This document shows positions 8,761-61,702 of a stretch of DNA of 64,000 bases, piece by piece. Origin of the DNA: Clostridiales bacterium (lineage in GTDB: Bacteria > Bacillota > Clostridia > Christensenellales > Borkfalkiaceae); the NCBI GenBank assembly GCA_015069465.1, contig SVIO01000003.1, forward strand, positions 62,001-126,000. The letters run 5' to 3'. The notes below the pieces were generated by a model. It did no database searches. It saw only the letters and a program-made list of their open reading frames with translations, and was not told where the DNA came from. A program made the translations under genes and the position numbers. The first letter of the stretch is position 1; every line of letters begins with the position of its first letter.

Positions 8761-10312
8761 TTTATTATCTTTAATAAAAATTCAATTTTTGTCACTTTTT
8801 GGCATAAATAAGATAGCCAACAAGAAAAAGGGCAAAAGCGCAAGCACTATAGGAATACTTGGTGTGGGGCTATTTTTTGTTGCAATAATTGTGTTGGTTG
8901 CCTATATCTATGCAAAAATGTTCGCTGAAATGTATGTTATGATGGGCAAAACAAAAGAATTTTTGCCAACCATTTTTGCTTTGATAAGCGTTATTTGTTT
9001 GGTATTTTCTTTTTATTCGGCAAGTGGAAATATCTATAGTGCAAAGGACTATGACCTTTTATCTGCAATGCCTATAAAAAAACACACGATAGTGCTTTCA
9101 AAACTAATATTTATGTATGTTGCAGATTTGCTTTTTGCAATTTTAGTGTTGGCAGTGGCTGTGTTCGTGCAGTTTGAAATTATAGGGGCTGTGTCGAGCA
9201 TAGAATTATTAAGACTTTTTATAATGACGCTTGCTCTCCCTGTTTATCCAATGCTCGTTTCAATTTTCTTAGGGGTTATCGTTAGTTATATTTCTTCAAA
9301 GTTTAGAAGAAAGTCGCTCGTTCAGTTTTTAATCTATGCCGTTTTATTTATAACAATGTATTCTATTTCTCTTATCGGCACAGACCTAAATGATAACCTT
9401 GGTGCAATAAGAAATATGTATTTTATCTATCCTTGGGTAGAAAAGGGCATAACAAGTTTTTCTTATGCACTTATATTTGTGGGTGTGGGAATTGCAATTT
9501 TGTCGATTTTAATTGTTTTTGTTAGTTATACTTACGATAAACTAAACACACTTTTAAAATCTGTTAAAAGGGCAAAGAATTATAAGTTTAAAAAGACAAA
9601 AAGTGGCACGCAGTTTAAGGCGCTTATGAAAAAAGAGTTTAGGCAACTATTTTCAACGCCAATTTATGCAATGAACACTCTTTTAGGCTCGATTTTTGCA
9701 ATAGCAGGCGCAATTTTGCTAACGGTTATGGCTTTTAGCACAAAAGATTTGTTAACTAAACTTATGTTTGCAATGATTTTGCAACCTATATTTGCTTTTA
9801 CATTTATGATTAGCCCAACAACGGCAGTAAGTTTAAATGTTGAAGGCAGTTGTTTTTATATAATGCGCACAAGCCCGATTTCTAGCAAAAGAATTTTTGG
9901 AACAAAATTATTTGTAAACTTTGTGGTGGCTGTTATTCCTGCGCTAATTTGTGGCATTGTTTTTTCAACAGCGCTTTTGTCATCGGCTCCAGCCCTAGTT
10001 ATAATTTTCACAATCTTAAACGCACCACTCTATGCAATTTTGGGTGGAAACTTGGGGCTTATGTTTAACCTTTTATTCCCTTATATGAAGTGGGATAATA
10101 TCACAAAGGCAGTTAAGCAAGGCGTTTCGGTGTTCTTTACAGTGCTTTGTGGCATGGCGCTTGCTGGCGCTGTGTTTGCGTTTTTATATTTTGTTAACCT
10201 TGACTTAGAGATAAAACTCATAATTGTCTTTGCTTTTTTATCTATTTTAAGCAATATTACATATATGATTATTTCAAAATATGGCGAAAGGTTAATTATC
10301 AAGAAAACTTAA
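8753..10312 (+). CDS. ABC-2-type exporter membrane subunit
   Basis: 519 aa from ATG 8753, which overlaps the ATPase stop by 8 bases; a TTG six bases earlier is in frame but less likely. About 12 hydrophobic segments with a basic cytoplasmic stretch near residues 265-295 (KRAKNYKFKKTKSG). It resembles large putative ABC-2 exporter permeases of Bacillota. The gene ends before a strong promoter at 10343, so transcription of the aro operon is independent. Confidence 0.75.
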   Translation: MNNLLSLIKIQFLSLFGINKIANKKKGKSASTIGILGVGLFFVAIIVLVAYIYAKMFAEMYVMMGKTKEFLPTIFALISVICLVFSFYSASGNIYSAKDYDLLSAMPIKKHTIVLSKLIFMYVADLLFAILVLAVAVFVQFEIIGAVSSIELLRLFIMTLALPVYPMLVSIFLGVIVSYISSKFRRKSLVQFLIYAVLFITMYSISLIGTDLNDNLGAIRNMYFIYPWVEKGITSFSYALIFVGVGIAILSILIVFVSYTYDKLNTLLKSVKRAKNYKFKKTKSGTQFKALMKKEFRQLFSTPIYAMNTLLGSIFAIAGAILLTVMAFSTKDLLTKLMFAMILQPIFAFTFMISPTTAVSLNVEGSCFYIMRTSPISSKRIFGTKLFVNFVVAVIPALICGIVFSTALLSSAPALVIIFTILNAPLYAILGGNLGLMFNLLFPYMKWDNITKAVKQGVSVFFTVLCGMALAGAVFAFLYFVNLDLEIKLIIVFAFLSILSNITYMIISKYGERLIIKKT

Positions 10313-10342
10313 TAAAAAACAAAAGAAAAATTTAAAAATTGC

Positions 10343-10371
10343 TTGACAACTTATATAATGGGGCGTATAAT
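10343..10371 (+). promoter_or_regulatory. Consensus promoter of the aro operon
   Basis: TTGACA (10343-10348), exactly 17 bases, TATAAT (10366-10371). A perfect sigma-A-type promoter, giving a leader of about 200 bases before aroF. Confidence 0.9.
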
Positions 10372-10394
10372 TGAGATAAATTGAGGCAAAAACT

Positions 10395-10457
10395 ATGAAA
10401 AAAACTAACGCTTATTTTTACTTTTATTTTAATAACAAGTTTTCTATATCGGATTAG
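10395..10457 (+). CDS. Tyr/Phe-rich leader peptide of the aro operon
   Basis: A 20-codon ORF reading MKKTNAYFYFYFNNKFSISD, with GAGG (10383-10386) eight bases before its ATG. It has an uninterrupted run of alternating Tyr and Phe codons (TAT TTT TAC TTT TAT TTT, 10413-10430) plus one more Phe codon: seven of 20 residues are the end products of the operon behind it. This is the hallmark of a ribosome-mediated attenuation leader, comparable in principle to PheL of enterobacteria. No similarity beyond that principle is claimed. Confidence 0.8.
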   Translation: MKKTNAYFYFYFNNKFSISD

Positions 10458-10534
10458 TAATTACTTATCGGTAGTTTTTGTGATGAAAAAAAATCAAGGG
10501 CTTTGTGGTAATTACTGCAAAGCCCTTTAGTTTT
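10456..10534 (+). promoter_or_regulatory. Putative aro attenuator: alternative pairing segments and terminator
   Basis: The 10-base self-complementary segment AGTAATTACT occurs at 10456-10465, overlapping the leader stop codon, and nearly again (GGTAATTACT) at 10507-10516. The second copy is the loop of a terminator hairpin, AAGGGCTTTG (10496-10505) with CAAAGCCCTT (10518-10527), followed by a T-containing tract. Copy 1 pairing with copy 2 (9-10 bp) would compete with the terminator, while a ribosome at the leader stop would cover copy 1 and let the terminator form. The T tract is imperfect (TAGTTTTA). Confidence 0.65.
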
Positions 10535-10574
10535 ATATCTAGAAAATTTAACCTTTTGGGGTAGGAGATAAAAA

Positions 10575-11594
10575 ATGATTATAGTTGTTAAAAATTCTTG
10601 CGAAAAAAATCAATACGATAACCTTGTCGATTGGATAAAGGAATTAGGACTTGACGTTCATGTAAGCCGTGGTGAAACTTCAACCGTTTTAGGGCTAGTT
10701 GGCGACACGAGTAGGGTGGATATTGACTTAATAAATTCACTCGATATTGTCGAGCAAGTTCAAAGGGTGCAAGAGCCATATAAAAATGCAAACAGAAAAT
10801 TTAATCCGTTAGACACTATAGTTAATATCGGTGGTCATAAGGTGGGTGGCAATATTTTTCAAGTTATCGCAGGCCCATGTTCGGTTGAAAGTGAAGAGCA
10901 AATTATAACGGTTGCAAAAGCCGTTAAAAAATCTGGCGCAACCATGCTTAGGGGTGGTGCATTTAAGCCAAGAACATCGCCATATGCTTTCCAAGGCTTA
11001 AAAAATCAAGGCATTGAACTACTTCTTAAAGCCAAAAAGGAAACGGGACTTCCTATTGTTACAGAACTACTTAACATTAACGATATAGACCTATTTGAAG
11101 ATGTAGACGTAATTCAAATCGGCGCAAGAAATATGCAAAATTTTGAACTACTTAAAGAAGTGGGAAAAATAGGCAAGCCAATTCTTCTTAAAAGGGGTCT
11201 TGCAAACACCTTGCAAGAACTTTTGATGAGCGCAGAATACATCATGGCAGAAGGAAATAATAAGGTTATTCTTTGCGAAAGGGGAATTAGAACTTTTGAA
11301 ACTATGACAAGAAATACCCTTGACCTTTCGGCAATTCCAGCGCTAAAAGAAAAAACACATTTACCTATTATCGTTGACCCAAGCCACTCTACAGGCGTTT
11401 CAAAATTCGTTCCATCAATGTCGCTTGCATCTGTTGGTGCTGGGGCAGACGGACTTATTATCGAAGTTCACAACAACCCTAAAAAGGCGTGGTGTGACGG
11501 CGCTCAGTCACTTGACTTAGAGCAGTTTGATAAGTTAATGATAAAGATTAAAAAGATGCTTAGCATTGTCGATAAAGTTTATGATGGTGAATAA
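10575..11594 (+). CDS. aroF: DAHP synthase, type I-beta with N-terminal regulatory domain
   Basis: 339 aa. Condenses phosphoenolpyruvate and erythrose 4-phosphate to DAHP, the first shikimate-pathway step. Residues 1-70 form a ferredoxin-like regulatory domain (MIIVVKNS, STVLGLVGDT) as in Thermotoga-type enzymes, where it mediates aromatic amino-acid feedback. The barrel shows AGPCSVES (with metal Cys), LRGGAFKPRTSPYAFQG, QIGARNMQNF, LLKRG and DPSHSTG. Metal-binding His and Glu appear in DPSHS and IIEVH. ATG 10575 has TAGGAG upstream. First structural gene after the Tyr/Phe attenuator. Confidence 0.95.
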   Translation: MIIVVKNSCEKNQYDNLVDWIKELGLDVHVSRGETSTVLGLVGDTSRVDIDLINSLDIVEQVQRVQEPYKNANRKFNPLDTIVNIGGHKVGGNIFQVIAGPCSVESEEQIITVAKAVKKSGATMLRGGAFKPRTSPYAFQGLKNQGIELLLKAKKETGLPIVTELLNINDIDLFEDVDVIQIGARNMQNFELLKEVGKIGKPILLKRGLANTLQELLMSAEYIMAEGNNKVILCERGIRTFETMTRNTLDLSAIPALKEKTHLPIIVDPSHSTGVSKFVPSMSLASVGAGADGLIIEVHNNPKKAWCDGAQSLDLEQFDKLMIKIKKMLSIVDKVYDGE

Positions 11595-12455
11595 ATGAAT
11601 ATAGCAATTATAGGGTTAGGACTTATAGGTGGCTCGCTTGGAAGGGTGCTTTGTAAAAAAACCGACCACACCGTTTTTGCAAACGATATAGATGCAAAGG
11701 CAATGAGTTTAGGAAGGCTTTTATCGGCATATCACCAGCCACTAACAAATGATAATATTGGGCAAATGGATTTAGTTATAGTTTCGCTTTATCCAGAGGC
11801 ATTAAAACAAAGTTTAGAAGAAATATGTCCATTGCTCAAAAAAGGTGCACTCGTTATGGACTGCTGTGGCAACAAAAGGCAAGTGGTACGCCAAATGAAA
11901 GCCTTAAGCCAAAAATATCCACACTTAGAGTTTATAAGTTCGCACCCTATGGCAGGCAGAGAGTTTTCTGGCGTGTCGCACTCAACGGCAAGTTTGTTCG
12001 ATAAAGCGTCTATGATTTTAGTGCCTGTTTCGGCAAGTTTAAAAACAACGCAAAGAATAAAAGAACTTTCTCTTTCGATTGGTTTTAATAGCGTAGTAAT
12101 CACCACGGCAAAAGAACACGATAGAATTATTGCATACACATCGCAACTTGCACACATTGTTTCAAGTTCATATATGAAAAGTCCAACGGCAACGAGTGTT
12201 ATGGGGTTTTCGGCAGGAAGTTTTAGGGATATGACAAGGGTTGCAAGACTTTCGCCTGAAATGTGGTCTGAGTTAACCATAGAAAACGCAGACTTTTTAG
12301 TGCAAGAAATAGATAATATTATAAACAATCTAACAGATTATAAAAAAGCACTTAAAAATGCTGACAAAGAGCAAATGAAAAAACTTCTTGCAGACGGCAA
12401 CGAGAAAAAACTCTTATCTGAAAAGATGAGAAGAAGTAAAATTAACGAAGAGTAG
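11595..12455 (+). CDS. tyrA: Prephenate dehydrogenase
   Basis: 286 aa. NAD(P)-dependent oxidative decarboxylation of prephenate to 4-hydroxyphenylpyruvate for tyrosine. Rossmann motif GLGLIGGS at residues 7-14, then SSHPMAGRE (catalytic His) and an all-helical C-terminal domain with SFRDMTRVA. There is no ACT domain, so feedback probably acts elsewhere. It begins one base after the aroF stop (TGA ATAA ATG arrangement), consistent with coupling. Confidence 0.93.
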   Translation: MNIAIIGLGLIGGSLGRVLCKKTDHTVFANDIDAKAMSLGRLLSAYHQPLTNDNIGQMDLVIVSLYPEALKQSLEEICPLLKKGALVMDCCGNKRQVVRQMKALSQKYPHLEFISSHPMAGREFSGVSHSTASLFDKASMILVPVSASLKTTQRIKELSLSIGFNSVVITTAKEHDRIIAYTSQLAHIVSSSYMKSPTATSVMGFSAGSFRDMTRVARLSPEMWSELTIENADFLVQEIDNIINNLTDYKKALKNADKEQMKKLLADGNEKKLLSEKMRRSKINEE

Positions 12456-12461
12456 AAAAAT

Positions 12462-13505
12462 ATGAGAGTAATAACAGTAAATGCATCAAAAAGTTATGAT
12501 ATTTTAGTGGGAAGTGGACTAATAGATATTGTTGGTGGCATTTTAACCCAATCGTTTGAGCCTTGTAAGGTGGCAGTGATAACAGACGATATCGTTGATG
12601 AAATCTATGGCGAAAGCGTAATGCAATCACTTGAAGAAAGTGGCTATGATGCAAGAAAATTCCTTTTTAAAAACGGAGAGAAGAGCAAAAACATAAACAC
12701 TTATATAGATATCCAAAACTTTTTGGCAAAGAACGAACTCACAAGAAAGGACATCGTTTTGGCGCTTGGTGGTGGCGTTGTTGGGGATATTGCAGGCTTT
12801 TCGGCAAGCACTTATCTTAGGGGCATAAACTACGTTCAAGTTCCAACAACCATTTTAGCGCAAATAGACTCGTCTGTTGGTGGAAAAACGGCAATCGACC
12901 TTGAGTGTGGAAAAAATCTTGTTGGTGCATTTCATCAACCATCGCTCGTTGTTTGCGATATAGAAGCCCTTTCAACTTTAACCGATGAAGTTATAGAAGA
13001 TGGACTTGGCGAAGGTGCAAAGTATGCACTTTTAGATAAAAGAGTGTTTATGCATATCTTAAACAAAAACTTTGACTTAGAAACTTTTGTAAGTTTATGT
13101 ATTGAATATAAAAAGCAAATTGTTGAAGGCGACGAGTTTGAAAGTGGAAATAGAAAACTTCTTAACTTAGGTCATACGATAGGTCACGCAATAGAAAAAT
13201 TATCTGGATATACTATTTCGCACGGAAAAGCCGTTGCAATCGGTTTAGATTATATTTTATCGGCATCGGTAAAGCACGGAAAAATCACAAGCGATGACTA
13301 TGAAAAAATCAAGGTGGTTTTATCACATTTAACAAAAAACGTTGATAAGTCGCTTTGTCCGTTTGACATAAAAGACATTGTAGAGTGCATGGTTTATGAC
13401 AAAAAGAGAGAAGGGGACAGCATTAGCCTTGTCGTATATAATGGTTTAGGTAATTGCGAGATAGAAAGCATTAAACTATGTGACCTTTTGGGGTATTTTC
13501 AATGA
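12462..13505 (+). CDS. aroB: 3-dehydroquinate synthase
   Basis: 347 aa, the family length. Converts DAHP to 3-dehydroquinate with NAD and a divalent metal. Motifs: NGEKSKN, LGGGVVGDIAGFSASTYLRG, QVPTTILAQIDSSVGGKTAID, GLGEGAKYALL, and metal ligands in NLGHTIGHAIE and SHGKAVAIG. It starts 6 bases after tyrA and overlaps aroA by four bases (ATGA). Confidence 0.95.
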   Translation: MRVITVNASKSYDILVGSGLIDIVGGILTQSFEPCKVAVITDDIVDEIYGESVMQSLEESGYDARKFLFKNGEKSKNINTYIDIQNFLAKNELTRKDIVLALGGGVVGDIAGFSASTYLRGINYVQVPTTILAQIDSSVGGKTAIDLECGKNLVGAFHQPSLVVCDIEALSTLTDEVIEDGLGEGAKYALLDKRVFMHILNKNFDLETFVSLCIEYKKQIVEGDEFESGNRKLLNLGHTIGHAIEKLSGYTISHGKAVAIGLDYILSASVKHGKITSDDYEKIKVVLSHLTKNVDKSLCPFDIKDIVECMVYDKKREGDSISLVVYNGLGNCEIESIKLCDLLGYFQ

Positions 13506-14698
13506 ATATAAGGGTTGAAAAATCTAAAACAAGTGGCGTTGTAGAAGCCATTGCATCTAAATCTTTTGCGCACAGAATTTTGATTTGCGACTTTCTTAGT
13601 GGCAATAATTTAAGAAAAGAGTTTAACGGCTTTTGTTCAAAAGATATTTTGGCAACATATAACTGCTTAAGCGATATAAAAAGTGGAAAAAGGGTTTTAG
13701 ATTGCGATGAATCTGGCTCAACGCTAAGATTTTTGCTTCCACTTTGCGCTGGGCTTGGTGGGGAATTTACTTTTTTAGGCAGGGGCAGGCTACTTTCTCG
13801 CCCAAACACCGAACTTCTTAATTCCCTTTCAAAAAACGGCATATCGTTTGAAGAAAATAAAGATAATATCAAAATTTGGGGCAAGTTAAAGGCTGGCGAA
13901 ATTGAAATAAGGGGAGATATAAGTTCGCAATATGTTTCGGGGCTTATTATGGCGCTTGCAACTTTGGATAGTGATAGCAAAATTATTTTAACTTCTCCAC
14001 TTGCATCAAAGCCTTATGTGGATATAACCTTAAGCGTGCTCAAAGGCTATGGCATTAAAGTCCAAAGCACCGATTATGGATATTTTATAAAAGGCAGTCA
14101 AAAATTTAGTGGAAGCCTTGATGCTGAAGGCGACTGGTCAAATATGGCGTTTTATTTAGTGCTTGGCGCTATAAATGGTGGCATAACGGTTAGTGGCTTA
14201 AACCTTCAAAGCGTTCAAGGTGATAAAAAGATATTAGATATCTTAAAAAGTGCAAATGCTGATATTACAGTGGGCGAAAATCAAATAACTGTTAGCAAAA
14301 GTCAGTTAAACGGCTTTAGTATGGATGCAAACGACTGCCCAGACTTAGTGCCAATATGCGCAGTTTTGGGTGCACTAGCAAGTGGCAAGACCATTATACA
14401 TAATATAGAAAGATTAAGGCTAAAAGAAAGCGATAGAGTTTTTTCTACTATAGAGATGCTAAAATCTTTTGGCATTAAGGCTGAAGAAAAAGAAAGTTCA
14501 ATGATAATTTATGGTGGAAAGGCAAGTGGTGGTGTGGTAAACTCATTTAACGACCACCGAATTGTAATGTCTAGTGCAGTTTTGGGGGCAGTGGCTTGTG
14601 GCGAAAGCAAAATTTTAGACGCTGGGGCTGTTAATAAGTCCTATCCAACATTTTTTGATGACTTTAAGAGCGTAGGGGGAAAAGCAAGTGAACTATAA
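13502..14698 (+). CDS. aroA: 5-enolpyruvylshikimate-3-phosphate synthase
   Basis: 398 aa, slightly shorter than the usual 425-430. Transfers enolpyruvyl to shikimate 3-phosphate. Start region KSFAHRILICDFLSG replaces the usual KSxxxRxLxLAALA; DESGSTLRFLLPLCAGLGG corresponds to the SGT(A)xR loop; also LLSRPNTELL, DGSDWSNMAFYLVLGA-type and ERLRLKESDR near the C-terminus, and FNDHRIVMSSAVLG. The glyphosate-loop is read as ESGSTLRFL, i.e. Gly followed by Ser-Thr rather than Gly-Asn-Ala-Gly. ATGA overlap with aroB and 11-base overlap with aroC show tight coupling. Confidence 0.9.
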   Translation: MNIRVEKSKTSGVVEAIASKSFAHRILICDFLSGNNLRKEFNGFCSKDILATYNCLSDIKSGKRVLDCDESGSTLRFLLPLCAGLGGEFTFLGRGRLLSRPNTELLNSLSKNGISFEENKDNIKIWGKLKAGEIEIRGDISSQYVSGLIMALATLDSDSKIILTSPLASKPYVDITLSVLKGYGIKVQSTDYGYFIKGSQKFSGSLDAEGDWSNMAFYLVLGAINGGITVSGLNLQSVQGDKKILDILKSANADITVGENQITVSKSQLNGFSMDANDCPDLVPICAVLGALASGKTIIHNIERLRLKESDRVFSTIEMLKSFGIKAEEKESSMIIYGGKASGGVVNSFNDHRIVMSSAVLGAVACGESKILDAGAVNKSYPTFFDDFKSVGGKASEL

Positions 14699-15764
14699 AG
14701 AAAGTTCTATCTTTAACGGAAGAAAACTTAAAATTGAAATTTTTGGCGCTTCACACTCAGAAGAGATTGGCGTTATAGTAAACGGCTTTAAGAAAGAAAA
14801 GGTTTGCCAAAGAAAATTGCAAAAATTTGTTGATAGAAGAAAGGCAAAAAACACTGCTTATTCCACAAAACGACTAGAGCAAGATAAAATTATCATAGAA
14901 AGTGGCAGAACTAACGGGTTTTTGGGTGGCGAGTTTAGGGCTGTTATAAAAAATACAAACCAAAACAGCAAAGACTATTCTAACCTAATAGTTACCCCAC
15001 GCCCATCGCACGCAGACTTTGTGGCTTGGCAAAAATATGGAAAAAAGTTTGATTATCGTGGTGGTGGCAAGTTTTCAGGAAGACTAACTGCGCCAATGTG
15101 CATTGCAGGTGGGCTTTGCAAACAAATTTTAGAAAAAAAAGGTATAAATATAAATGCTTATATCTCACAAATAGGTTTAGTTAAGGGCGCAAGTTATAAA
15201 GATACCGATATTGAGAAAATAGACCTAAATAATTTAGATGGTGATTTTCCACTTTTAGACGACTCTAAAAAAGAGCAAATGCTGGAAGTTATTGAAAGTG
15301 CAAGAAATGACTTAGATTCGGTTGGTGGCATAATAGAGTGCGTTATAAAAGGCGTGCCTATAGGTGCTGGCGAGTATATGTTTGACAGTTTAGAAAGTGT
15401 AATTTCAGGGCTTGCTTTTGCTGTTCCTGCAGTTAAGGGCATAGAGTTTGGCTCGGGCTTTGACCTTGCAAGTATGCTGGGAAGCACGGCTAACGACCCA
15501 TTTTATTATGACGGAGATAAAGTTAAAACAAAAACAAATAACAATGGTGGCATAAACGGGGGATTAGCAAACGGCATGCCAATAACCTTTAGGGTTGTTG
15601 TTAAACCAACACCATCTATTGCCAAAGAGCAAGACACAATAAATATTAAGACTAAAGAGAACGCAAAACTTAAAATAGAAGGAAGGCACGATGCTTGTAT
15701 TGTTCCAAGGGCAGTCCCTGTAATTGAAGCGATATCAGCCATTGCAATTTACGATAGCCTATAG
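14688..15764 (+). CDS. aroC: Chorismate synthase
   Basis: 358 aa, starting at GTG 14688 inside the aroA end, with AGGGGG upstream. Uses reduced FMN to eliminate phosphate from EPSP. Motifs: IFGASHSEEIG (first conserved His), SGRTNGF-type loop, RPSHADFVAWQKYGKKFDYRGGGKFSGRLTAP region (second His and Arg), NNGGINGGLANGMPI and a C-terminal RHDACIVPRAVPVIEA. The FDYRGGG...SGRLTA version is that of short Clostridia/Bacteroidetes-type enzymes rather than the RSSARET form. Confidence 0.93.
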   Translation: MNYKESSIFNGRKLKIEIFGASHSEEIGVIVNGFKKEKVCQRKLQKFVDRRKAKNTAYSTKRLEQDKIIIESGRTNGFLGGEFRAVIKNTNQNSKDYSNLIVTPRPSHADFVAWQKYGKKFDYRGGGKFSGRLTAPMCIAGGLCKQILEKKGININAYISQIGLVKGASYKDTDIEKIDLNNLDGDFPLLDDSKKEQMLEVIESARNDLDSVGGIIECVIKGVPIGAGEYMFDSLESVISGLAFAVPAVKGIEFGSGFDLASMLGSTANDPFYYDGDKVKTKTNNNGGINGGLANGMPITFRVVVKPTPSIAKEQDTINIKTKENAKLKIEGRHDACIVPRAVPVIEAISAIAIYDSL

Positions 15765-15774
15765 GAGAAAAAAT

Positions 15775-16920
15775 ATGGAACTAAATGAAATAAGAGAGAA
15801 GATAGACATTGTCGATGACAAGATTTCCAAACTTTATGCAGAGCGCATGGAACTTATTAAAGAAGTGAGTGTGGCAAAAGCAAAGTCTGGAAAGGCAGTT
15901 AACGACCCTGACAGAGAAAAGAAAATACTTTTAAGAGTTTCGGAAAATATTGGTGAAGATAAAAAGGTTTTCTTAAAGCGTGTTTTTGAAACCATTTTTG
16001 AAACGAGCAAGGCTTATCAAACGATTAGTGTAGAGCATCAATCTGAAGTGGGGGATAAAATTAAAAAGGCGTTAGAAAAAGGCGAACTTAAATTCCCTGT
16101 TAAAGCAAAGGTTGCTTGTCAAGGGGTGGCTGGGGCTTATTCTGGCATTGCTGCAGATAAACTTTTTGAACTTGCAGACGTAACCTACTTTAAGAATTTT
16201 GACGGAGTTTTTGGGGCAGTTGAAAAGGGTTTTTGTAAGTATGGGGTGCTACCTATTGAAAATAGTTCGGCAGGCTCAGTTAACCAAGTTTATGACCTTA
16301 TGAAAGAGCATAAGTTCTATATAGTTAAAAGTGTTAGACTTCCTGTTTTACACAATTTGGTGGTTAATAAGGATACTAAGAAAGAAGATATTAAAGAAAT
16401 TTATTCGCACGAGCAAGCACTTTCTCAATGCAAAAAATATCTTGAGCAGTTTAAAAATGCAACGATTATCGCTTGCCCAAACACTGCTTTAGCAGCACGC
16501 ACGGTGGCTGAGAGTGGAAGAAAAGACGTTGCTGCAATTTCTTCAAGAGAGTGCGCTGAACTTTACGGCTTAAAACTACTTGAGACAAACGTGCAAGATA
16601 GCGACAATAATTACACTCGCTTTATTCTCATTGCAAAGGACTTAGAGTTTTATCAAGGCTCAAATAAGATAAGCATTATGACAACCCTTCCACAAAACGC
16701 TCCGGGAAGTCTTAATAAACTTCTTGCAAAGTTTGCTAACCTTGGAATAAATTTGACCAAACTTGAATCTCGCCCAATAGTTGGCTCAAGTTTTGAGTTT
16801 ATGTTTTATTTTGACTTTAATTGCGACATCAAAGAAAAAGCAGTGCAAAATTTACTTTGCGAACTAGATAATTCAACCGAGCAATTTACTTTCCTCGGCG
16901 CTTATGGAGAAACAGTTTAA
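15775..16920 (+). CDS. pheA: Bifunctional chorismate mutase / prephenate dehydratase (P-protein)
   Basis: 381 aa. Residues 1-85 are an AroQ-type chorismate mutase (LNEIREKIDIVDDKI, RMELIKEV, KAVNDPDREKKIL). Residues 105-285 are the dehydratase: GVAGAYSGIAADKLF, GVLPIENSSAGSVNQVYDL and the catalytic NYTRFILIA. An ACT domain follows with GSLNKLLAKFANLGINLTKLESRP, the ESRP motif that senses phenylalanine. Start taken at ATG 15775 because AGGAG lies 8 bases before it; an earlier in-frame start lies inside aroC. Makes phenylpyruvate. Confidence 0.95.
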   Translation: MELNEIREKIDIVDDKISKLYAERMELIKEVSVAKAKSGKAVNDPDREKKILLRVSENIGEDKKVFLKRVFETIFETSKAYQTISVEHQSEVGDKIKKALEKGELKFPVKAKVACQGVAGAYSGIAADKLFELADVTYFKNFDGVFGAVEKGFCKYGVLPIENSSAGSVNQVYDLMKEHKFYIVKSVRLPVLHNLVVNKDTKKEDIKEIYSHEQALSQCKKYLEQFKNATIIACPNTALAARTVAESGRKDVAAISSRECAELYGLKLLETNVQDSDNNYTRFILIAKDLEFYQGSNKISIMTTLPQNAPGSLNKLLAKFANLGINLTKLESRPIVGSSFEFMFYFDFNCDIKEKAVQNLLCELDNSTEQFTFLGAYGETV

Positions 16921-16922
16921 TT

Positions 16923-18161
16923 ATGCAAAAATTTGCTCTTATTGGCAAAACATTAAAACACAGTTATTCTAAAAAAATCCACGCATTACTTGGTAGTTAT
17001 GACTATGACTTAGTTGAACTAGAAGAAAGTGAGTTAAAAGATTTTGTTTTAAGAAAAGAATATAAAGGTTTTAACGTTACCATACCATATAAAAAAAATA
17101 TAATTCCCTTTTTAGATGAAGTTGATGAAAGGGCTAAAAAAATCGGCGCAGTAAACACCGTCGTTTGCAAAAATGGCAAACTTTGTGGCTACAACACCGA
17201 TTTTGACGGCATGGTTTATGCCCTAAATAGTGCTAAAATTGAAATAAAAGGAAAAATCGTTTTAATTTTAGGCAGTGGTGGAACTTCTAACACGGCAAGG
17301 GCAGTTGCTGAATTTTTGGGAGCAAAAGAAATAAAAATCTTATCTCGCTCAGGCGAAATTAACTATCAAAACTATTTCGAAAAAGCAAAAGATGCTCAAG
17401 TTATTATCAACACAACGCCTGTTGGAATGTATCCTGATAATTATTCTTGTTTAATCGAACTAAGTAATTTTGCAAAGTTAGAAGGCGTTTTAGACGTTGT
17501 GTATAACCCAGCGATGACAATGCTACTAAATAAAGCAAAAGAATTGGGGATAAAGCACACAAACGGACTGCCTATGCTCGTTGCTCAAGCAAAGTTTGCA
17601 AGCCAATTATTTTTAGATAAAAAACTTGATGATAATTTAATCGAAAACATTATAAACAAGTTAAATAAAGAAAGTCAAAACCTAATTTTAATAGGTATGG
17701 CAGGCTGTGGAAAAACAACCATAGGAAAAATGGCCACTGATTTTTTAGGCAAAGAATTTATAGACACAGATGCTGTTATTGAGCAAAAGGCAGGAAAAAC
17801 AATCCCTGAAATTTTTGCTTTAGAAGGCGAAGAATATTTTAGAAAATTAGAAAGCGAAGTTTTAAGCGAAGTAGGCAAACTTTCAAACAAAGTCATCTCA
17901 ACAGGTGGTGGTGTGGTGACTAAAAGAGAAAACTATTTTTCACTTAAACAAAATGGCGTTATTATTTGGATAAAAAGAGATGTTGACCTTTTAGCAAGCG
18001 ATAATAGGCCACTTTCTAAAGATAGAGAAACGATAAAAAATCTTTACGAAAAGAGAAAAGAAAGTTACTCTCGCTTTGCTGATGGCGAAGTTACAAACAA
18101 TGACAGTTTGCAAAGTGCAGTAAATAAGGTGGTAAATTTTTATGAAAATTTTAGTAATTAA
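16923..18161 (+). CDS. aroEK: Fused shikimate dehydrogenase - shikimate kinase
   Basis: 412 aa. Residues 1-245 are shikimate dehydrogenase: NVTIPYK with catalytic Lys57, GAVNT (75-79), NTDFDG with Asp93, nucleotide loop GSGGTSNTA (117-125), and INTTPVGMYP. Residues 252-412 are shikimate kinase: P-loop GMAGCGKT (258-265), DTDAVIE (281-287), FRKLE and ISTGGGVV (326-332), then RPLS and SRFA near the lid and end. The fusion supplies steps 4 and 5 in one chain with a short linker (NKLNKESQN). Starts 2 bases after the pheA stop. Confidence 0.94.
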   Translation: MQKFALIGKTLKHSYSKKIHALLGSYDYDLVELEESELKDFVLRKEYKGFNVTIPYKKNIIPFLDEVDERAKKIGAVNTVVCKNGKLCGYNTDFDGMVYALNSAKIEIKGKIVLILGSGGTSNTARAVAEFLGAKEIKILSRSGEINYQNYFEKAKDAQVIINTTPVGMYPDNYSCLIELSNFAKLEGVLDVVYNPAMTMLLNKAKELGIKHTNGLPMLVAQAKFASQLFLDKKLDDNLIENIINKLNKESQNLILIGMAGCGKTTIGKMATDFLGKEFIDTDAVIEQKAGKTIPEIFALEGEEYFRKLESEVLSEVGKLSNKVISTGGGVVTKRENYFSLKQNGVIIWIKRDVDLLASDNRPLSKDRETIKNLYEKRKESYSRFADGEVTNNDSLQSAVNKVVNFYENFSN

Positions 18162-18573
18162 CGGACCAAACATAAATATGCTTGGCATAAGAGAAAAAGA
18201 AATTTATGGTGATAAAAGTTATAATTCGCTTATTAAACTTATCAAAAAAAGTGCAAAAGAAAAAGGGATTAAGGCAACTTGTTTTCAGTCTAACTATGAA
18301 GGCGCAATAGTTACTAAAATCCAAAATGCATATAAAAAGATTGACGGCATTATTATAAATCCAGCAGGTTATACCCACACGAGCGTTGCTATTTTAGATG
18401 CCTTAAAGGCAGTTAATATCCCAACCGTTGAAGTGCATATTTCAGCCGTAAATGAAAGGGAAGAATTTAGAAAAATTTCTTATGTTCGTGAATATGCCTT
18501 TTTAACCATTGCAGGCGAAGGTTTTGATGGATATATAAAAGCAATGGATAAACTAATTGAAAAATTAAACTAA
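18142..18573 (+). CDS. aroQ: 3-dehydroquinate dehydratase, type II
   Basis: 143 aa, typical of the dodecameric type II enzyme. N-terminus ILVINGPNINMLGIRE (NGPNLN-type motif with active Arg), FQSNYEGAIV (usual QSNHEG with His replaced by Tyr), INPAGYTHTSVAI (catalytic region) and EVHISAVNEREEFR. Makes 3-dehydroshikimate. Overlaps the end of the aroE-aroK gene by 20 bases and closes the operon, followed by a strong hairpin. Confidence 0.93.
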   Translation: MKILVINGPNINMLGIREKEIYGDKSYNSLIKLIKKSAKEKGIKATCFQSNYEGAIVTKIQNAYKKIDGIIINPAGYTHTSVAILDALKAVNIPTVEVHISAVNEREEFRKISYVREYAFLTIAGEGFDGYIKAMDKLIEKLN

Positions 18574-18586
18574 AATCAAATAAAAC

Positions 18587-18628
18587 AAAAACCCTTCTAA
18601 AAATGTTATGCTTTTTAGAAGGGTTTTT
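18587..18628. terminator. Terminator closing the aro operon (bidirectional)
   Basis: AAAAACCCTTCTAAAAA (18587-18603) pairs perfectly with TTTTTAGAAGGGTTTTT (18612-18628), 8-base loop. It lies between convergent aroQ and thiT and suits both directions. Confidence 0.9.
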
Positions 18629-18644
18629 AATTTGGTTATAAATT

Positions 18645-19796
18645 TTATTTATCTTGGTTTAACTTTTTAAGTTCGTGCAAAAAACTCTTTGATGAAAATA
18701 AAACTAAGCCAACAACCACAACGAGCGCGATGTCGATAAATACATAAGTATTATAAATTGCACTAAAAGTAAAGAAACTTGATGCACCTGCGTCGGCAGC
18801 ATATGCACCGAAAGCGAACACGCCAGAAATAACGTGTGCAATGTATCTAAATAGTCCAACAAGTATAGCACTGATTGTGAACTTTAATCTTGGCAAGTTG
18901 TTTAAAACATTTAGGTCGGTAAGAAGCCCAGCAAAAGTAATCATTGAAAATGCTATTGGATAGTCAAGCAAGAATTGACCTGGGTGAACGATAAATGGGT
19001 CTTGAATTGCTTGTAAAAGTCCATAAATAAAGCCGACGATTAAACCTTTCTTCATGCCATAAACATAACTGAACAAACAAATAGGCAAGAAAGAAACTAG
19101 TGTGATAGAACCACCTTGTAGCCATGCTGCTTCAAACTTAACATATGAAAGCACAAAAGAAAGGGCAATTGAAATGCCAGCCATAGAAATTGTTCTAGCA
19201 TCAAAAGGCGTTTTGTTTTTTCTGCCAACGATAAGAGATGTTGCAACGACAACTAAAATTAAAAGTGCAGAAAGGATATAAAGAACAGGTGAGTTTAGTT
19301 TTCCATAGTCGCCCGTATAGTATCCGTCGCCTAAAACGTTTTTAGAATAGAAAATTGCAATTAAAACTATAGTTATGGCAAGTGCCACGCCACAAACGAT
19401 TAGAGCGATGATGCTGGTCTTTTTGAAAATAACAGGTTTCTTTTTAGAAATTATAAATAGTGTAATCATGCTAACAAGGGTTAAAACAAGGGTAACAAGA
19501 ACAGGGATAAGTACAAAAGGGATTATTTTTTCGCTTACCCAGTTTCCTTCTAGATAGCCTTTGCTAAACTTTTTAGCCATTTCTAATGAAACGAGAACAA
19601 TTCCCATAACAACGGCATAAAAAACAGCAACCATGCCCACGGTTTTAACAAGTTCAGACTTAGAAAAAGATTCCTTCTTGCTAAAAAAGATAATGATGAG
19701 CGATAAAATCATCATACCGATAACGCCTACGCTAATCCACTTAGCAATAGGTTCAAGTGTGTCAAAAACATAACTTGACATTAAATTGTTTAACAT
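18645..19796 (-). CDS. thiT: ECF thiamine transporter substrate subunit (ThiT/YuaJ) with N-terminal membrane extension
   Basis: 383 aa, about twice the normal ThiT (about 190 aa). The C-terminal half, from about residue 195, is ThiT-like: FDARTISMAGISIALSF, EAAWLQGGSITLVSFLPI, YGMKKGLIVGFIYGLLQ and HPGQFLLDYPIAF. The N-terminal 190 residues add four or five hydrophobic segments with KKESFSKSELV and KKKPVIFKK loops. A TPP riboswitch directly upstream supports thiamine as substrate. AAGGAG precedes the ATG. It would use a shared ECF energising module encoded elsewhere. Confidence 0.88.
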   Translation of the reverse strand: MLNNLMSSYVFDTLEPIAKWISVGVIGMMILSLIIIFFSKKESFSKSELVKTVGMVAVFYAVVMGIVLVSLEMAKKFSKGYLEGNWVSEKIIPFVLIPVLVTLVLTLVSMITLFIISKKKPVIFKKTSIIALIVCGVALAITIVLIAIFYSKNVLGDGYYTGDYGKLNSPVLYILSALLILVVVATSLIVGRKNKTPFDARTISMAGISIALSFVLSYVKFEAAWLQGGSITLVSFLPICLFSYVYGMKKGLIVGFIYGLLQAIQDPFIVHPGQFLLDYPIAFSMITFAGLLTDLNVLNNLPRLKFTISAILVGLFRYIAHVISGVFAFGAYAADAGASSFFTFSAIYNTYVFIDIALVVVVGLVLFSSKSFLHELKKLNQDK

Positions 19797-19847
19797 TTTG
19801 TCTCCTTCTATTCGCTAAAAGTATAAGTGAAAATATTGCCTATAAAA

Positions 19848-19876
19848 CAAAAAAACACTTCCTATGGAAGCGTTTT
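19848..19876 (-). terminator. Intrinsic terminator between TPP riboswitch and thiT
   Basis: On the minus strand AACGCTTCC pairs with GGAAGTGTT (one G-U), 3-base loop, followed by a T run. It is placed to act as the expression platform of the riboswitch. Confidence 0.8.
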
Positions 19877-19891
19877 CTTTAGATACAATCT

Positions 19892-19962
19892 CTTGCTTTC
19901 CCTTCAAGCATAACCTTGCGGGTTCAAATGGTGTAATCTCAGCCTAACGGCACCCATAGCGA
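19892..19962 (-). promoter_or_regulatory. TPP riboswitch (THI element)
   Basis: The minus strand reads GGGTGCC...GGCTGAGA...ACACCATTTGAACCCG...TTGAAGGGAAAGC, the conserved THI-box segments in the right order, including CTGAGA and TTTGAACC. With the terminator at 19848-19876 it should switch off thiT when TPP is abundant. Confidence 0.93.
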
Positions 19963-19989
19963 ATATTCAAAAAATTTTTTAGTAAAAAT

Positions 19990-20018
19990 ATAATAACACT
20001 TTGATTTTATTGTGTCAA
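19990..20018 (-). promoter_or_regulatory. Promoter of the TPP-riboswitch/thiT transcript
   Basis: On the minus strand TTGACA (20018-20013), 17 bases, TATTAT (19995-19990). Start predicted about 19983, just before the riboswitch. The rest of 19797-20127 holds only this promoter, the riboswitch and AT-rich sequence. Confidence 0.75.
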
Positions 20019-20127
20019 GCAAAAAAATATGCTAAAATGTAAATCCAACTAAAAAATTAAAAACCTAACAAAACATTATATATAGAAAAAAAATTATATA
20101 AAAATTTTCAAAAAAGGGGAAAACAAA

Positions 20128-20703
20128 ATGAGCAAGTTTTTTGCATTTTTAAATCGTATGAAATATATAAGGCGCTGGTCGCTTATGCGCTCGGTTAGAG
20201 AAGAAAACATAATGGAACACTCTTTAGAAGTGTGTATCTTGGCGCATGCCTTAGCCGTTATTAAGAACAATATGTTTGGAGGACAAGTAAATATCGAAAA
20301 AGTCGTTCTTTTAGCGCAATATCACGAAGTTGGCGAAGTTATTACAGGCGATTTGCCAACACCTATAAAATATTTTAATCCAGAAATTAAAAACGCTTAT
20401 AAAGATTTGGAAACGCTTGCAAGCAAAAAGATTTTAGACACCCTTCCAGATAGCATAAAAGCCGAATACGAGCAGTATGTTTTGCCAGACGAAAATAGCG
20501 AAGAATATAAAATCGTAAAAGGCGCTGACAGGCTTTCGGCATATCTAAAGTGCGTTGAAGAACTAAAAGCAGGCAATACCGAATTCAAAAAAGCAAAAAG
20601 AACAATACTTAGTGACCTTAAAAATCTAAAGCGAGAAGAAATAGATTATTACCTAAAAGAATTTGCTCCAGCATACGAACTTACATTAGATGAATTGGAC
20701 TAG
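20128..20703 (+). CDS. YfbR-like HD-family 5'-deoxynucleotidase
   Basis: 191 aa. FFAFLNRMKYIRRWSLMRSVREENIMEHSLEV aligns with the start of YfbR, including metal His31 and the substrate loop RWSLMR. Later GDLPTPIKYF and KGADRLSAYLKCVEEL (second Asp) are kept. The central HD dyad reads His66-Glu67 (YHEVGEV) instead of His-Asp. Family members dephosphorylate deoxyribonucleoside 5'-monophosphates. AAGGGG precedes ATG 20128. Confidence 0.82.
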   Translation: MSKFFAFLNRMKYIRRWSLMRSVREENIMEHSLEVCILAHALAVIKNNMFGGQVNIEKVVLLAQYHEVGEVITGDLPTPIKYFNPEIKNAYKDLETLASKKILDTLPDSIKAEYEQYVLPDENSEEYKIVKGADRLSAYLKCVEELKAGNTEFKKAKRTILSDLKNLKREEIDYYLKEFAPAYELTLDELD

Positions 20704-37953: not shown

Positions 37954-37971
37954 TATAAAAAACAAAAAATA

Positions 37972-38152
37972 AAATTCTTTGGGGCAGGGTGAAATTCCCT
38001 ATCGGCAGTATAGTCTGCGACCACAAAAAATTTTTGTGCTGACAAGGTTTAATTCCTTGACCGACGGTTATAGTCCGGATGAGAAAAGAATTTGGGGCGA
38101 AGTCTTGCCCCGATATCTACTCGTGCGTCCCTATAGAATTTTAAAGGGGCGT
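37972..38152 (+). promoter_or_regulatory. FMN riboswitch (RFN element) with SD-sequestering platform
   Basis: Aptamer 37972-38093: closing stem AAATTCTTT/AAAGAATTT, and GGGGCAGGGTGAAATTCCC, ATCGGCAGT, AGTCTGCGACC, TTGACCGACGGTTATAGTCCGGATGAGA segments of RFN in order. Downstream, GCGTCCCT (38125-38132) can pair with AGGGGCGT (38145-38152), hiding the ribU ribosome site AAAGGGG, so control is probably translational. GGGGC/GCCCC at 38094-38112 offers an alternative stem. Confidence 0.93.
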
Positions 38153-52110: not shown

Positions 52111-52124
52111 CTCAAAGTAAACTA

Positions 52125-52249
52125 AATAGCCCAAGACAGTAGGTAATATGTAATTGTGATTTATCGCAAACCTGCCGAGGCAGAAATTAAGTAGTATAAA
52201 AATCAGTTTTTATGCCCTTGCGTTCTGTTTCGGAGTGCAAGGGCTTTTT
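52125..52249 (+). promoter_or_regulatory. L10 leader RNA with terminator
   Basis: Contains AGACAGTAGGTAAT, TTATCGCAAACCTGCCGAGG and ATTAAGT, the conserved blocks of the L10 (rplJ) leader bound by the L10-L12 complex, then a terminator GCCCTTGC/GCAAGGGC (52214-52244) with a T5 run. Confidence 0.88.
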
Positions 52250-52272
52250 CATTAAATCAAGGAGGTAATAAA

Positions 52273-60766: not shown

Positions 60767-61702
60767 ATGAAAAACATTACAGCAAGAAAAATTGTACTTT
60801 ATTCAGTTGCTTTATTATCAGCAATTATGCTAATCGTAGGACTTTCGTTTAGTGTTACTTTCCTATCGTTGTCTGGCGAAAAAGAAGGGGTGAGTGGATT
60901 TGAACTACTTGCTTTTAAATTTCCTGAAGAGTTTAGGTTGTTTATAATTTCTGTATGCAATGATAAGGCTTTTATTGAATTTTATGAAGTGTTCTTTGGA
61001 ATTACTTCTTTATTAACACTTGTATTATCTATTGTATCTATAGGGCTAATGATTTTGGCATTTTTCAAGTTTGATAAAAAGAAAGAAGAAATAACTTCGA
61101 TAATATTATTGGCAGTGTCGTTGCTTGTTTCAATAGGTTATGCAGTGTTGCCTGTGTTTTTTAATAGAGAAATAAGTCTAAGTATAAAAAGGCTAGCAGA
61201 ACAAATGTCTGGCACAGGATATGATGAAATTTTTAAACATATGACAACAGGAACGTCGGCTTTTATTTCGGCAATTATTCAAGCTGTTATTTTTGTCGGC
61301 TATATTGTTTGTTTAATAGTATTTAAGGAGAAAAAAGCAAGTAAAAAAGGTACTATAGAAAAAGCAAAGCAAAAACATAGAGATTTAGAAGTTGATAAAG
61401 TTTTTTCTTTTGAATATTCTATAATTGAACTATTAAAAGAATATAAAAATTTACATAACGAAGGTGTTATCACTCAAGAAGAGTATTTTAATAAAAAAGA
61501 AGAAGTGTTAAATTCTTCTAACGAAAAGATAAAAGAAATATCTTCGCTTATAAAAAACATACCATTTGAAGAAGTAATTAAAACAAGAAAAATTGCAGTT
61601 GAAGTATTAAGAGAGTATAAAAAACTTTTAGAGAGTCAAACTATTTTAGAAAATGAGTATGACGCTAAAAAAGAAGCATTACTTTATTGTGTAATTGACT
61701 AA
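60767..61702 (+). CDS. Four-helix membrane protein with SHOCT-like tail (module B)
   Basis: 311 aa: hydrophobic segments at about 10-32, 82-106, 114-132 and 172-193, with an extracytoplasmic region between the first two. The cytoplasmic tail includes LLKEYKNLHNEGVITQEEYFNKKEEVLN, a SHOCT-like short helical-hairpin domain, and a second similar unit near the end (LREYKKLLESQTILENEYDAKKEALL). No known overall family. GAGG lies before the ATG. Confidence 0.7.
   Translation: MKNITARKIVLYSVALLSAIMLIVGLSFSVTFLSLSGEKEGVSGFELLAFKFPEEFRLFIISVCNDKAFIEFYEVFFGITSLLTLVLSIVSIGLMILAFFKFDKKKEEITSIILLAVSLLVSIGYAVLPVFFNREISLSIKRLAEQMSGTGYDEIFKHMTTGTSAFISAIIQAVIFVGYIVCLIVFKEKKASKKGTIEKAKQKHRDLEVDKVFSFEYSIIELLKEYKNLHNEGVITQEEYFNKKEEVLNSSNEKIKEISSLIKNIPFEEVIKTRKIAVEVLREYKKLLESQTILENEYDAKKEALLYCVID

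Follow-up and report, generated by a model that had tools for sequence, protein, structure and literature searches.

Leader peptides with tyrosine and phenylalanine codons as predicted attenuators of DAHP synthase operons in Clostridia

Introduction

Leader-peptide attenuation is a classical mode of gene control, represented by the enteric trp, pheA and pheST attenuators, in which the ribosome acts as the mediator. For the control of aromatic amino-acid synthesis in Clostridia, T-boxes are the usual assumption. In Bacillota, the T-box riboswitch (RF00230) likewise regulates amino-acid genes in response to tRNA charging, but it binds uncharged tRNA directly, without translation.

Among leader-peptide systems, the pheST and Phe attenuators are mentioned in PMC1262725. 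Bacilli have His leader peptides (Naville and Gautheret 2010, PMC2965389) and Staphylococcus aureus has a Leu-rich ilv leader (PMC5794164); these are likewise regular leader-peptide attenuators of Bacillota, for other amino acids and other genes. Two published descriptions come closest to the system analysed here. A screen of five genomes including Clostridium novyi lists, in the legend of its Fig. 6b, two F/Y upstream open reading frame (uORF) candidates near shikimate metabolism genes (Stav et al. 2019, PMC6429828). The uORFC-13-1 motif is described as lying exclusively upstream of aroF, in 24 sequences from Acholeplasma and unassigned environmental sources (PMC8632094).

Here, we analysed a 64,000-nt stretch of DNA (the window) from a Clostridiales bacterium (GCA_015069465.1, contig SVIO01000003.1, 62,001–126,000 of the forward strand), in which a leader region at 10343–10574 lies directly ahead of the eight genes aroF-tyrA-aroB-aroA-aroC-pheA-aroEK-aroQ. 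It has in common with the enteric trp, pheA and pheST attenuators the codons for pathway products, the alternative antiterminator and terminator hairpins and a biosynthetic operon downstream; unlike in those systems, Tyr and Phe codons alternate within one leader, the host is clostridial and the controlled gene is a DAHP synthase heading a whole aro operon. Compared by description, the F/Y uORFs of PMC6429828 share the short upstream ORF, the notable Phe and Tyr codons and the adjacent shikimate genes, while the main text there contains no analysis of competing hairpins and gives neither sequences, host nor distribution. The uORFC-13-1 motif, again as described, shares the position before aroF, an intrinsic terminator, promoter, ribosome binding site, start codon and U-rich Phe codons; its description gives at least one Phe and states no Tyr run. 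This kind of leader is thus already known, at least as Phe/Tyr uORFs near shikimate genes in the first of these publications and as a Phe uORF before aroF in the second. A preliminary description of the locus had called combined Tyr and Phe sensing noteworthy for Bacillota, which was too strong in view of these reports and of how common such leaders proved to be in Clostridia. In the searchable open-access literature we did not find their Clostridia-wide extent, their presence in other phyla or the two geometries with one ruler described below, and the spread is much wider than searchable open-access papers report.

Results

Family-model matches confirm that the operon carries the complete aromatic gene content from aroF to aroQ (Table 1). 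Sensing of both Tyr and Phe would fit this operon, since tyrA and pheA both lie inside it and it makes both amino acids. The promoter matches the consensus at every position, as had been proposed, and is the best among 46 promoter-like sites in 9900–20200. The same TTGACA...TATAAT arrangement was found in the aligned close relatives, with TATACT in one of them (L093).

The leader ORF starts with ATG at 10395 and ends with TAG at 10455–10457. Its Tyr and Phe codons (YFYFYF) occupy 10413–10430, and a further Phe codon lies at 10440. The predicted 20-codon peptide with alternating Tyr and Phe codons and a proper ribosome site is present as first described, and it shows conservation at the peptide level. 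Two other upstream regions of the window that score for Tyr and Phe, at 60767 and 27515, were rejected, as they have neither a ribosome binding site nor a neighbouring attenuator nor a link to the pathway.

Table 1. Features of the aro leader and operon, in window coordinates
Feature	Position	Strand	Basis
Sigma-70 type promoter, TTGACA-17 nt-TATAAT	10343..10371	+	12/12 consensus positions
Ribosome binding site GAGG of leader	10383..10386	+	sequence reading, 8 nt before ATG
Strand 1, predicted partner of 10471-10481 (1:2 helix)	10386..10396	+	MFE fold
Leader peptide ORF MKKTNAYFYFYFNNKFSISD*, 20 codons	10395..10457	+	translation; Y/F run conserved before aroF in relatives
Strand 2, predicted antiterminator strand from stop codon onward	10455..10478	+	fold; shuffle test
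Intrinsic terminator AAGGGCTTTGTGGT-AATT-ACTGCAAAGCCCTT, 14 bp, then TAGTTTT (T-rich tail)	10496..10527	+	terminator scan; folds
Strand 3, terminator 5' half + top	10497..10517	+	pairs with strand 2 or strand 4
aroF, type I-beta DAHP synthase with N-terminal ferredoxin-like (FL) domain	10575..11594	+	NF006421, TIGR01361 above cut-off; PF18152 + PF00793
tyrA, prephenate dehydrogenase family	11595..12455	+	best E 5e-47, below equivalog cut-offs
aroB, 3-dehydroquinate synthase	12462..13505	+	TIGR01357 above cut-off
aroA, EPSP synthase	13502..14698	+	TIGR01356 above cut-off
aroC, chorismate synthase	14688..15764	+	TIGR00033 above cut-off
pheA, chorismate mutase-prephenate dehydratase-ACT fusion	15724..16920	+	PF01817, PF00800; ACT just under cut-off
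aroE-aroK fusion, shikimate dehydrogenase + shikimate kinase	16923..18161	+	both halves matched, below equivalog cut-offs
aroQ, type II 3-dehydroquinate dehydratase	18142..18573	+	TIGR01088 above cut-off
Terminator-like hairpin, operon end	18587..18628	+	terminator scan

Downstream of the Tyr/Phe run lies a self-complementary 10-mer, AGTAATTACT, at 10456–10465, with a near copy, GGTAATTACT, at 10507–10516. Both had been noted before, and two details of that account need correction. The stop codon does not lie fully inside the first 10-mer, which it overlaps by two bases, and the loop of the terminator, a hairpin that is indeed present, consists only of AATT of the second copy, the rest of which tops the 14-bp stem. 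The predicted antiterminator strand is made up of TAGTAATTACT (10455–10465), CGG (10469–10471) and AGTTTT (10473–10478). Its fold with strand 3 (10448–10522) was calculated at -15.7 kcal/mol, the terminator competes for the same strand 3, and the pairing of strands 2 and 3 exceeds that in shuffled sequences (z -3.5, p 0.007).

We also predicted a helix between strands 1 and 2, absent from the preliminary description, that covers the leader start codon. Among the nearest relatives the exact helix of the window is not kept (alignment; z 0.3), and pairing of this type is modestly enriched over 111 leaders (mean z -1.28 versus 0.0 for a control segment), which makes a conserved role of strand 1 a weak idea.

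We then folded the window RNA at equilibrium with a ribosome placed at the stop codon, on the Tyr/Phe codons, or absent, a calculation that had been put forward as a check of the proposed switch. With RNA up to nt 10519, a ribosome at the stop codon reduced the probability of the antiterminator to 0.00, while a ribosome stalled on any of the Tyr/Phe codons left it at 0.92–0.99. The calculation bore out the effect of the stop-codon ribosome; it did not distinguish stalled from ribosome-free RNA, for which the probability was 0.94. From nt 10525 onward the terminator won in every ribosome setting. Since the finished terminator always wins, the switch would have to be kinetic; according to the model, fast translation keeps it closed and stalling opens it for a limited time.

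Is the Tyr/Phe leader a common element upstream of aroF? An AroF search provided 80 loci from other genomes, giving 81 upstream regions of 330 nt with that of the window, in which we counted as a leader any ATG-initiated ORF with at least 6 Tyr or Phe in 12 residues. Such a leader was found in 59 of the 81 loci, compared with 0.75 expected from dinucleotide-preserving shuffles, and Tyr plus Phe was the most enriched of all 190 amino-acid pairs. The possibility that the Tyr/Phe run has no counterpart in relatives, named earlier as the result that would speak against the attenuator, is contradicted by these counts. As a control, we scored 844 upstream regions that belong to other genes at the same loci, and 8 of them reached this threshold. 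Leaders were present in 20 of 29 upstream regions of a family sample and in 37 of 65 of a class sample, and a phylum sample scored for Tyr, Phe and Trp yielded more, down to about 54% AroF identity (L196–L201, L203, L208); these three samples partly overlap with the first set. One locus, L153, was left out of the analysis.

About a quarter of the 81 loci have no leader by this definition, some genuinely and some with the leader farther upstream (L009, L010, L090). In two of them, both close relatives (L009:1064-1570 and L010:4442-5001), an insertion between terminator and gene that contains repeated GAGCCTCGTCTTGCT-like stretches places leader and terminator more than 400 nt ahead of aroF. In a genome of the same genus, the leader is kept although a stop or frameshift interrupts the DAHP synthase frame (L115, G039:C9:28230-29230). 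Several genomes, among them G202, G190 and G074, carry two full-length DAHP synthase genes.

What is kept among these leaders is the coding content. The RNA sequence diverges widely among relatives while the Tyr/Phe codons stay, and variation within the run is synonymous: the 18-nt YFYFYF run shared by the window and five of its closest relatives (L009, L010, L011, L090, L091) has three variable positions, all of them third positions of Tyr codons. Over 111 leaders, Tyr and Phe together make up 34% of the residues and Trp 0.4% (means of 4.0 Tyr, 5.2 Phe and 0.12 Trp per leader), with Tyr and Phe each occurring at least twice in 108 and Tyr encoded by TAT 246 times and by TAC 203 times. Any Trp occurs in 13 of the 111; some leaders (L149, L126, L162, L166, L168) have it beside Tyr or Phe and possibly sense all three aromatic amino acids.

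The predicted hairpins recur as well. A terminator of -6 kcal/mol or better followed 111 of 114 leaders; with shuffled downstream sequence, the figure fell to 20 of 114. A few of the 114 upstream regions are near-duplicates. The strand after the Tyr/Phe run pairs with the 5' half and top of the terminator with a mean z of -2.56, a value pooled over related sequences that does not stand for a probability, and with p<=0.05 in 69 of 111; the tested region, from the last Tyr/Phe codon onward and including four bases of the terminator 3' arm, was picked after two earlier versions and not blind, so these numbers are descriptive. An earlier version, which began three codons ahead of the stop and used only the terminator 5' arm and loop, gave a weaker signal (median z -1.0; p<=0.05 in 15 of 51), because the pairing strand of long leaders lies in the coding sequence and that of the window reaches into the 3' arm. 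The excess is consistent in sign and size over very different sequences; a predicted, mutually exclusive antiterminator/terminator pair thus keeps its position even where the letters that form it differ.

The position of this pair revealed two geometries. The antiterminator core starts about 5 nt after the stop codon if the leader has up to 24 residues, and about 22 nt before it, within the coding sequence, if the leader is longer, as in Oscillibacter valericigenes (L047). Measured from the last Tyr/Phe codon, the core starts at a median of 18 nt in short and 20 nt in long leaders, the latter with a wide spread (interquartile 13.5–34). These medians suggest that the fixed point of reference is the stalling place rather than the stop codon.

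Discussion

From the elements of the leader, their conservation, the excess of Tyr and Phe codons and the conserved exclusive pairing, we infer ribosome stalling, read-through and a response to the Tyr and Phe supply. The leader very probably acts as a ribosome-mediated transcription attenuator that senses the charging of Tyr-tRNA and Phe-tRNA; we regard a real starvation sensor as this likely because the same kind of switch recurs before aroF in many gut Clostridia. The ribosome would trail RNA polymerase from the promoter through the 20-codon leader. When charged Tyr- or Phe-tRNA is scarce, it would pause on the YFYFYF codons and leave strand 2 free to pair with strand 3, so that the terminator would form too late and the eight-gene operon would be transcribed. 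When both tRNAs are plentiful, it would reach the stop codon, where its footprint would mask strand 2; strand 3 would then pair with strand 4 and transcription would end near 10530. The conserved Tyr/Phe run and the predicted exclusive hairpin pair support the logic first proposed, in which stalling at Tyr/Phe codons opens the operon and free translation closes it.

Could the leader be a more general sensor of translation? Any ribosome slowed by an antibiotic, low energy or general starvation might open the operon, with the Tyr and Phe codons merely setting the place of the pause, and the same RNA switch would indeed respond mechanically. A general sensor would have no need for such codons, however, and the marked excess of Tyr and Phe over Trp, together with the identity of the controlled gene as the first enzyme of the pathway, makes this reading improbable. 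We consider it still less probable that a small molecule or a protein binds the RNA, as in a riboswitch or a protein-dependent antiterminator, with the ORF incidental. The alternative folds would suit such a mechanism, but an Rfam search of 10343–10574 found neither a T-box (RF00230) nor any other family at the gathering threshold, a scan of the leaders of 20 relatives gave sub-threshold noise only, and the wide variation of the RNA around kept codons with synonymous changes argues for the peptide as the conserved feature. That a T-rich intergenic region encodes Tyr and Phe by chance before the terminator of the upstream gene is hardly credible, even in an AT-rich genome and with eight other upstream regions scoring equally. 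The shuffled expectation, the control upstream regions and the terminator and pairing tests all contradict it, and the promoter sits downstream of the preceding gene but ahead of that terminator.

How far does this predicted dual attenuator extend? Leaders before aroF were also found on contigs titled Lentisphaerae (L025, L030, L053), Oligosphaeraceae (L046), Victivallales (L064), Thermoguttaceae (L065) and Treponemataceae (L078), whose AroF proteins are 64–68% identical to that of the window. The simplest reading is that gene and leader were transferred together to other phyla; alternatively, the contigs may be mis-binned. Tentatively, we see it as quite possible, if short of probable, that dual Tyr and Phe attenuation is how DAHP synthase is commonly controlled in much of Clostridia, that it moved with its gene into other phyla, and that it takes as its ruler the spacing between the Tyr/Phe codons and the antiterminator rather than the stop codon. 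If so, long leaders, with the antiterminator strand in the coding sequence, cannot end the signal by the same masking at the stop codon. For the uncultured Clostridia of gut and rumen, the leader would offer a concrete control element of aromatic amino-acid synthesis that can be put to the test. More than 100 natural variants in two geometries could show how one leader balances its two amino acids and what sets the distance between regulatory codons and antiterminator.

T-boxes are found in these organisms too. Three relatives carry one directly upstream of the DAHP synthase gene in place of the leader (L185, L204, L210). In the genome that contains the window there are seven T-box matches alongside the aro leader, so both kinds of sensor would coexist in one genome. 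One of the seven lies directly before pheS (L005:1501-1718; G000:C2:110347-110564), which apparently places the Phe-tRNA synthetase under T-box control; the aro operon of the same genome would be under a leader peptide. A tandem pair (L003 and L008, G000:C2:18323-18842) precedes an isopropylmalate/citramalate synthase-like gene. Other RNA elements of the window are a ribosomal protein L10 leader (RF00557) at 52112–52259 and an FMN riboswitch (RF00050) at 37971–38094, upstream of an ECF transporter substrate-binding component that probably belongs to a riboflavin transporter.
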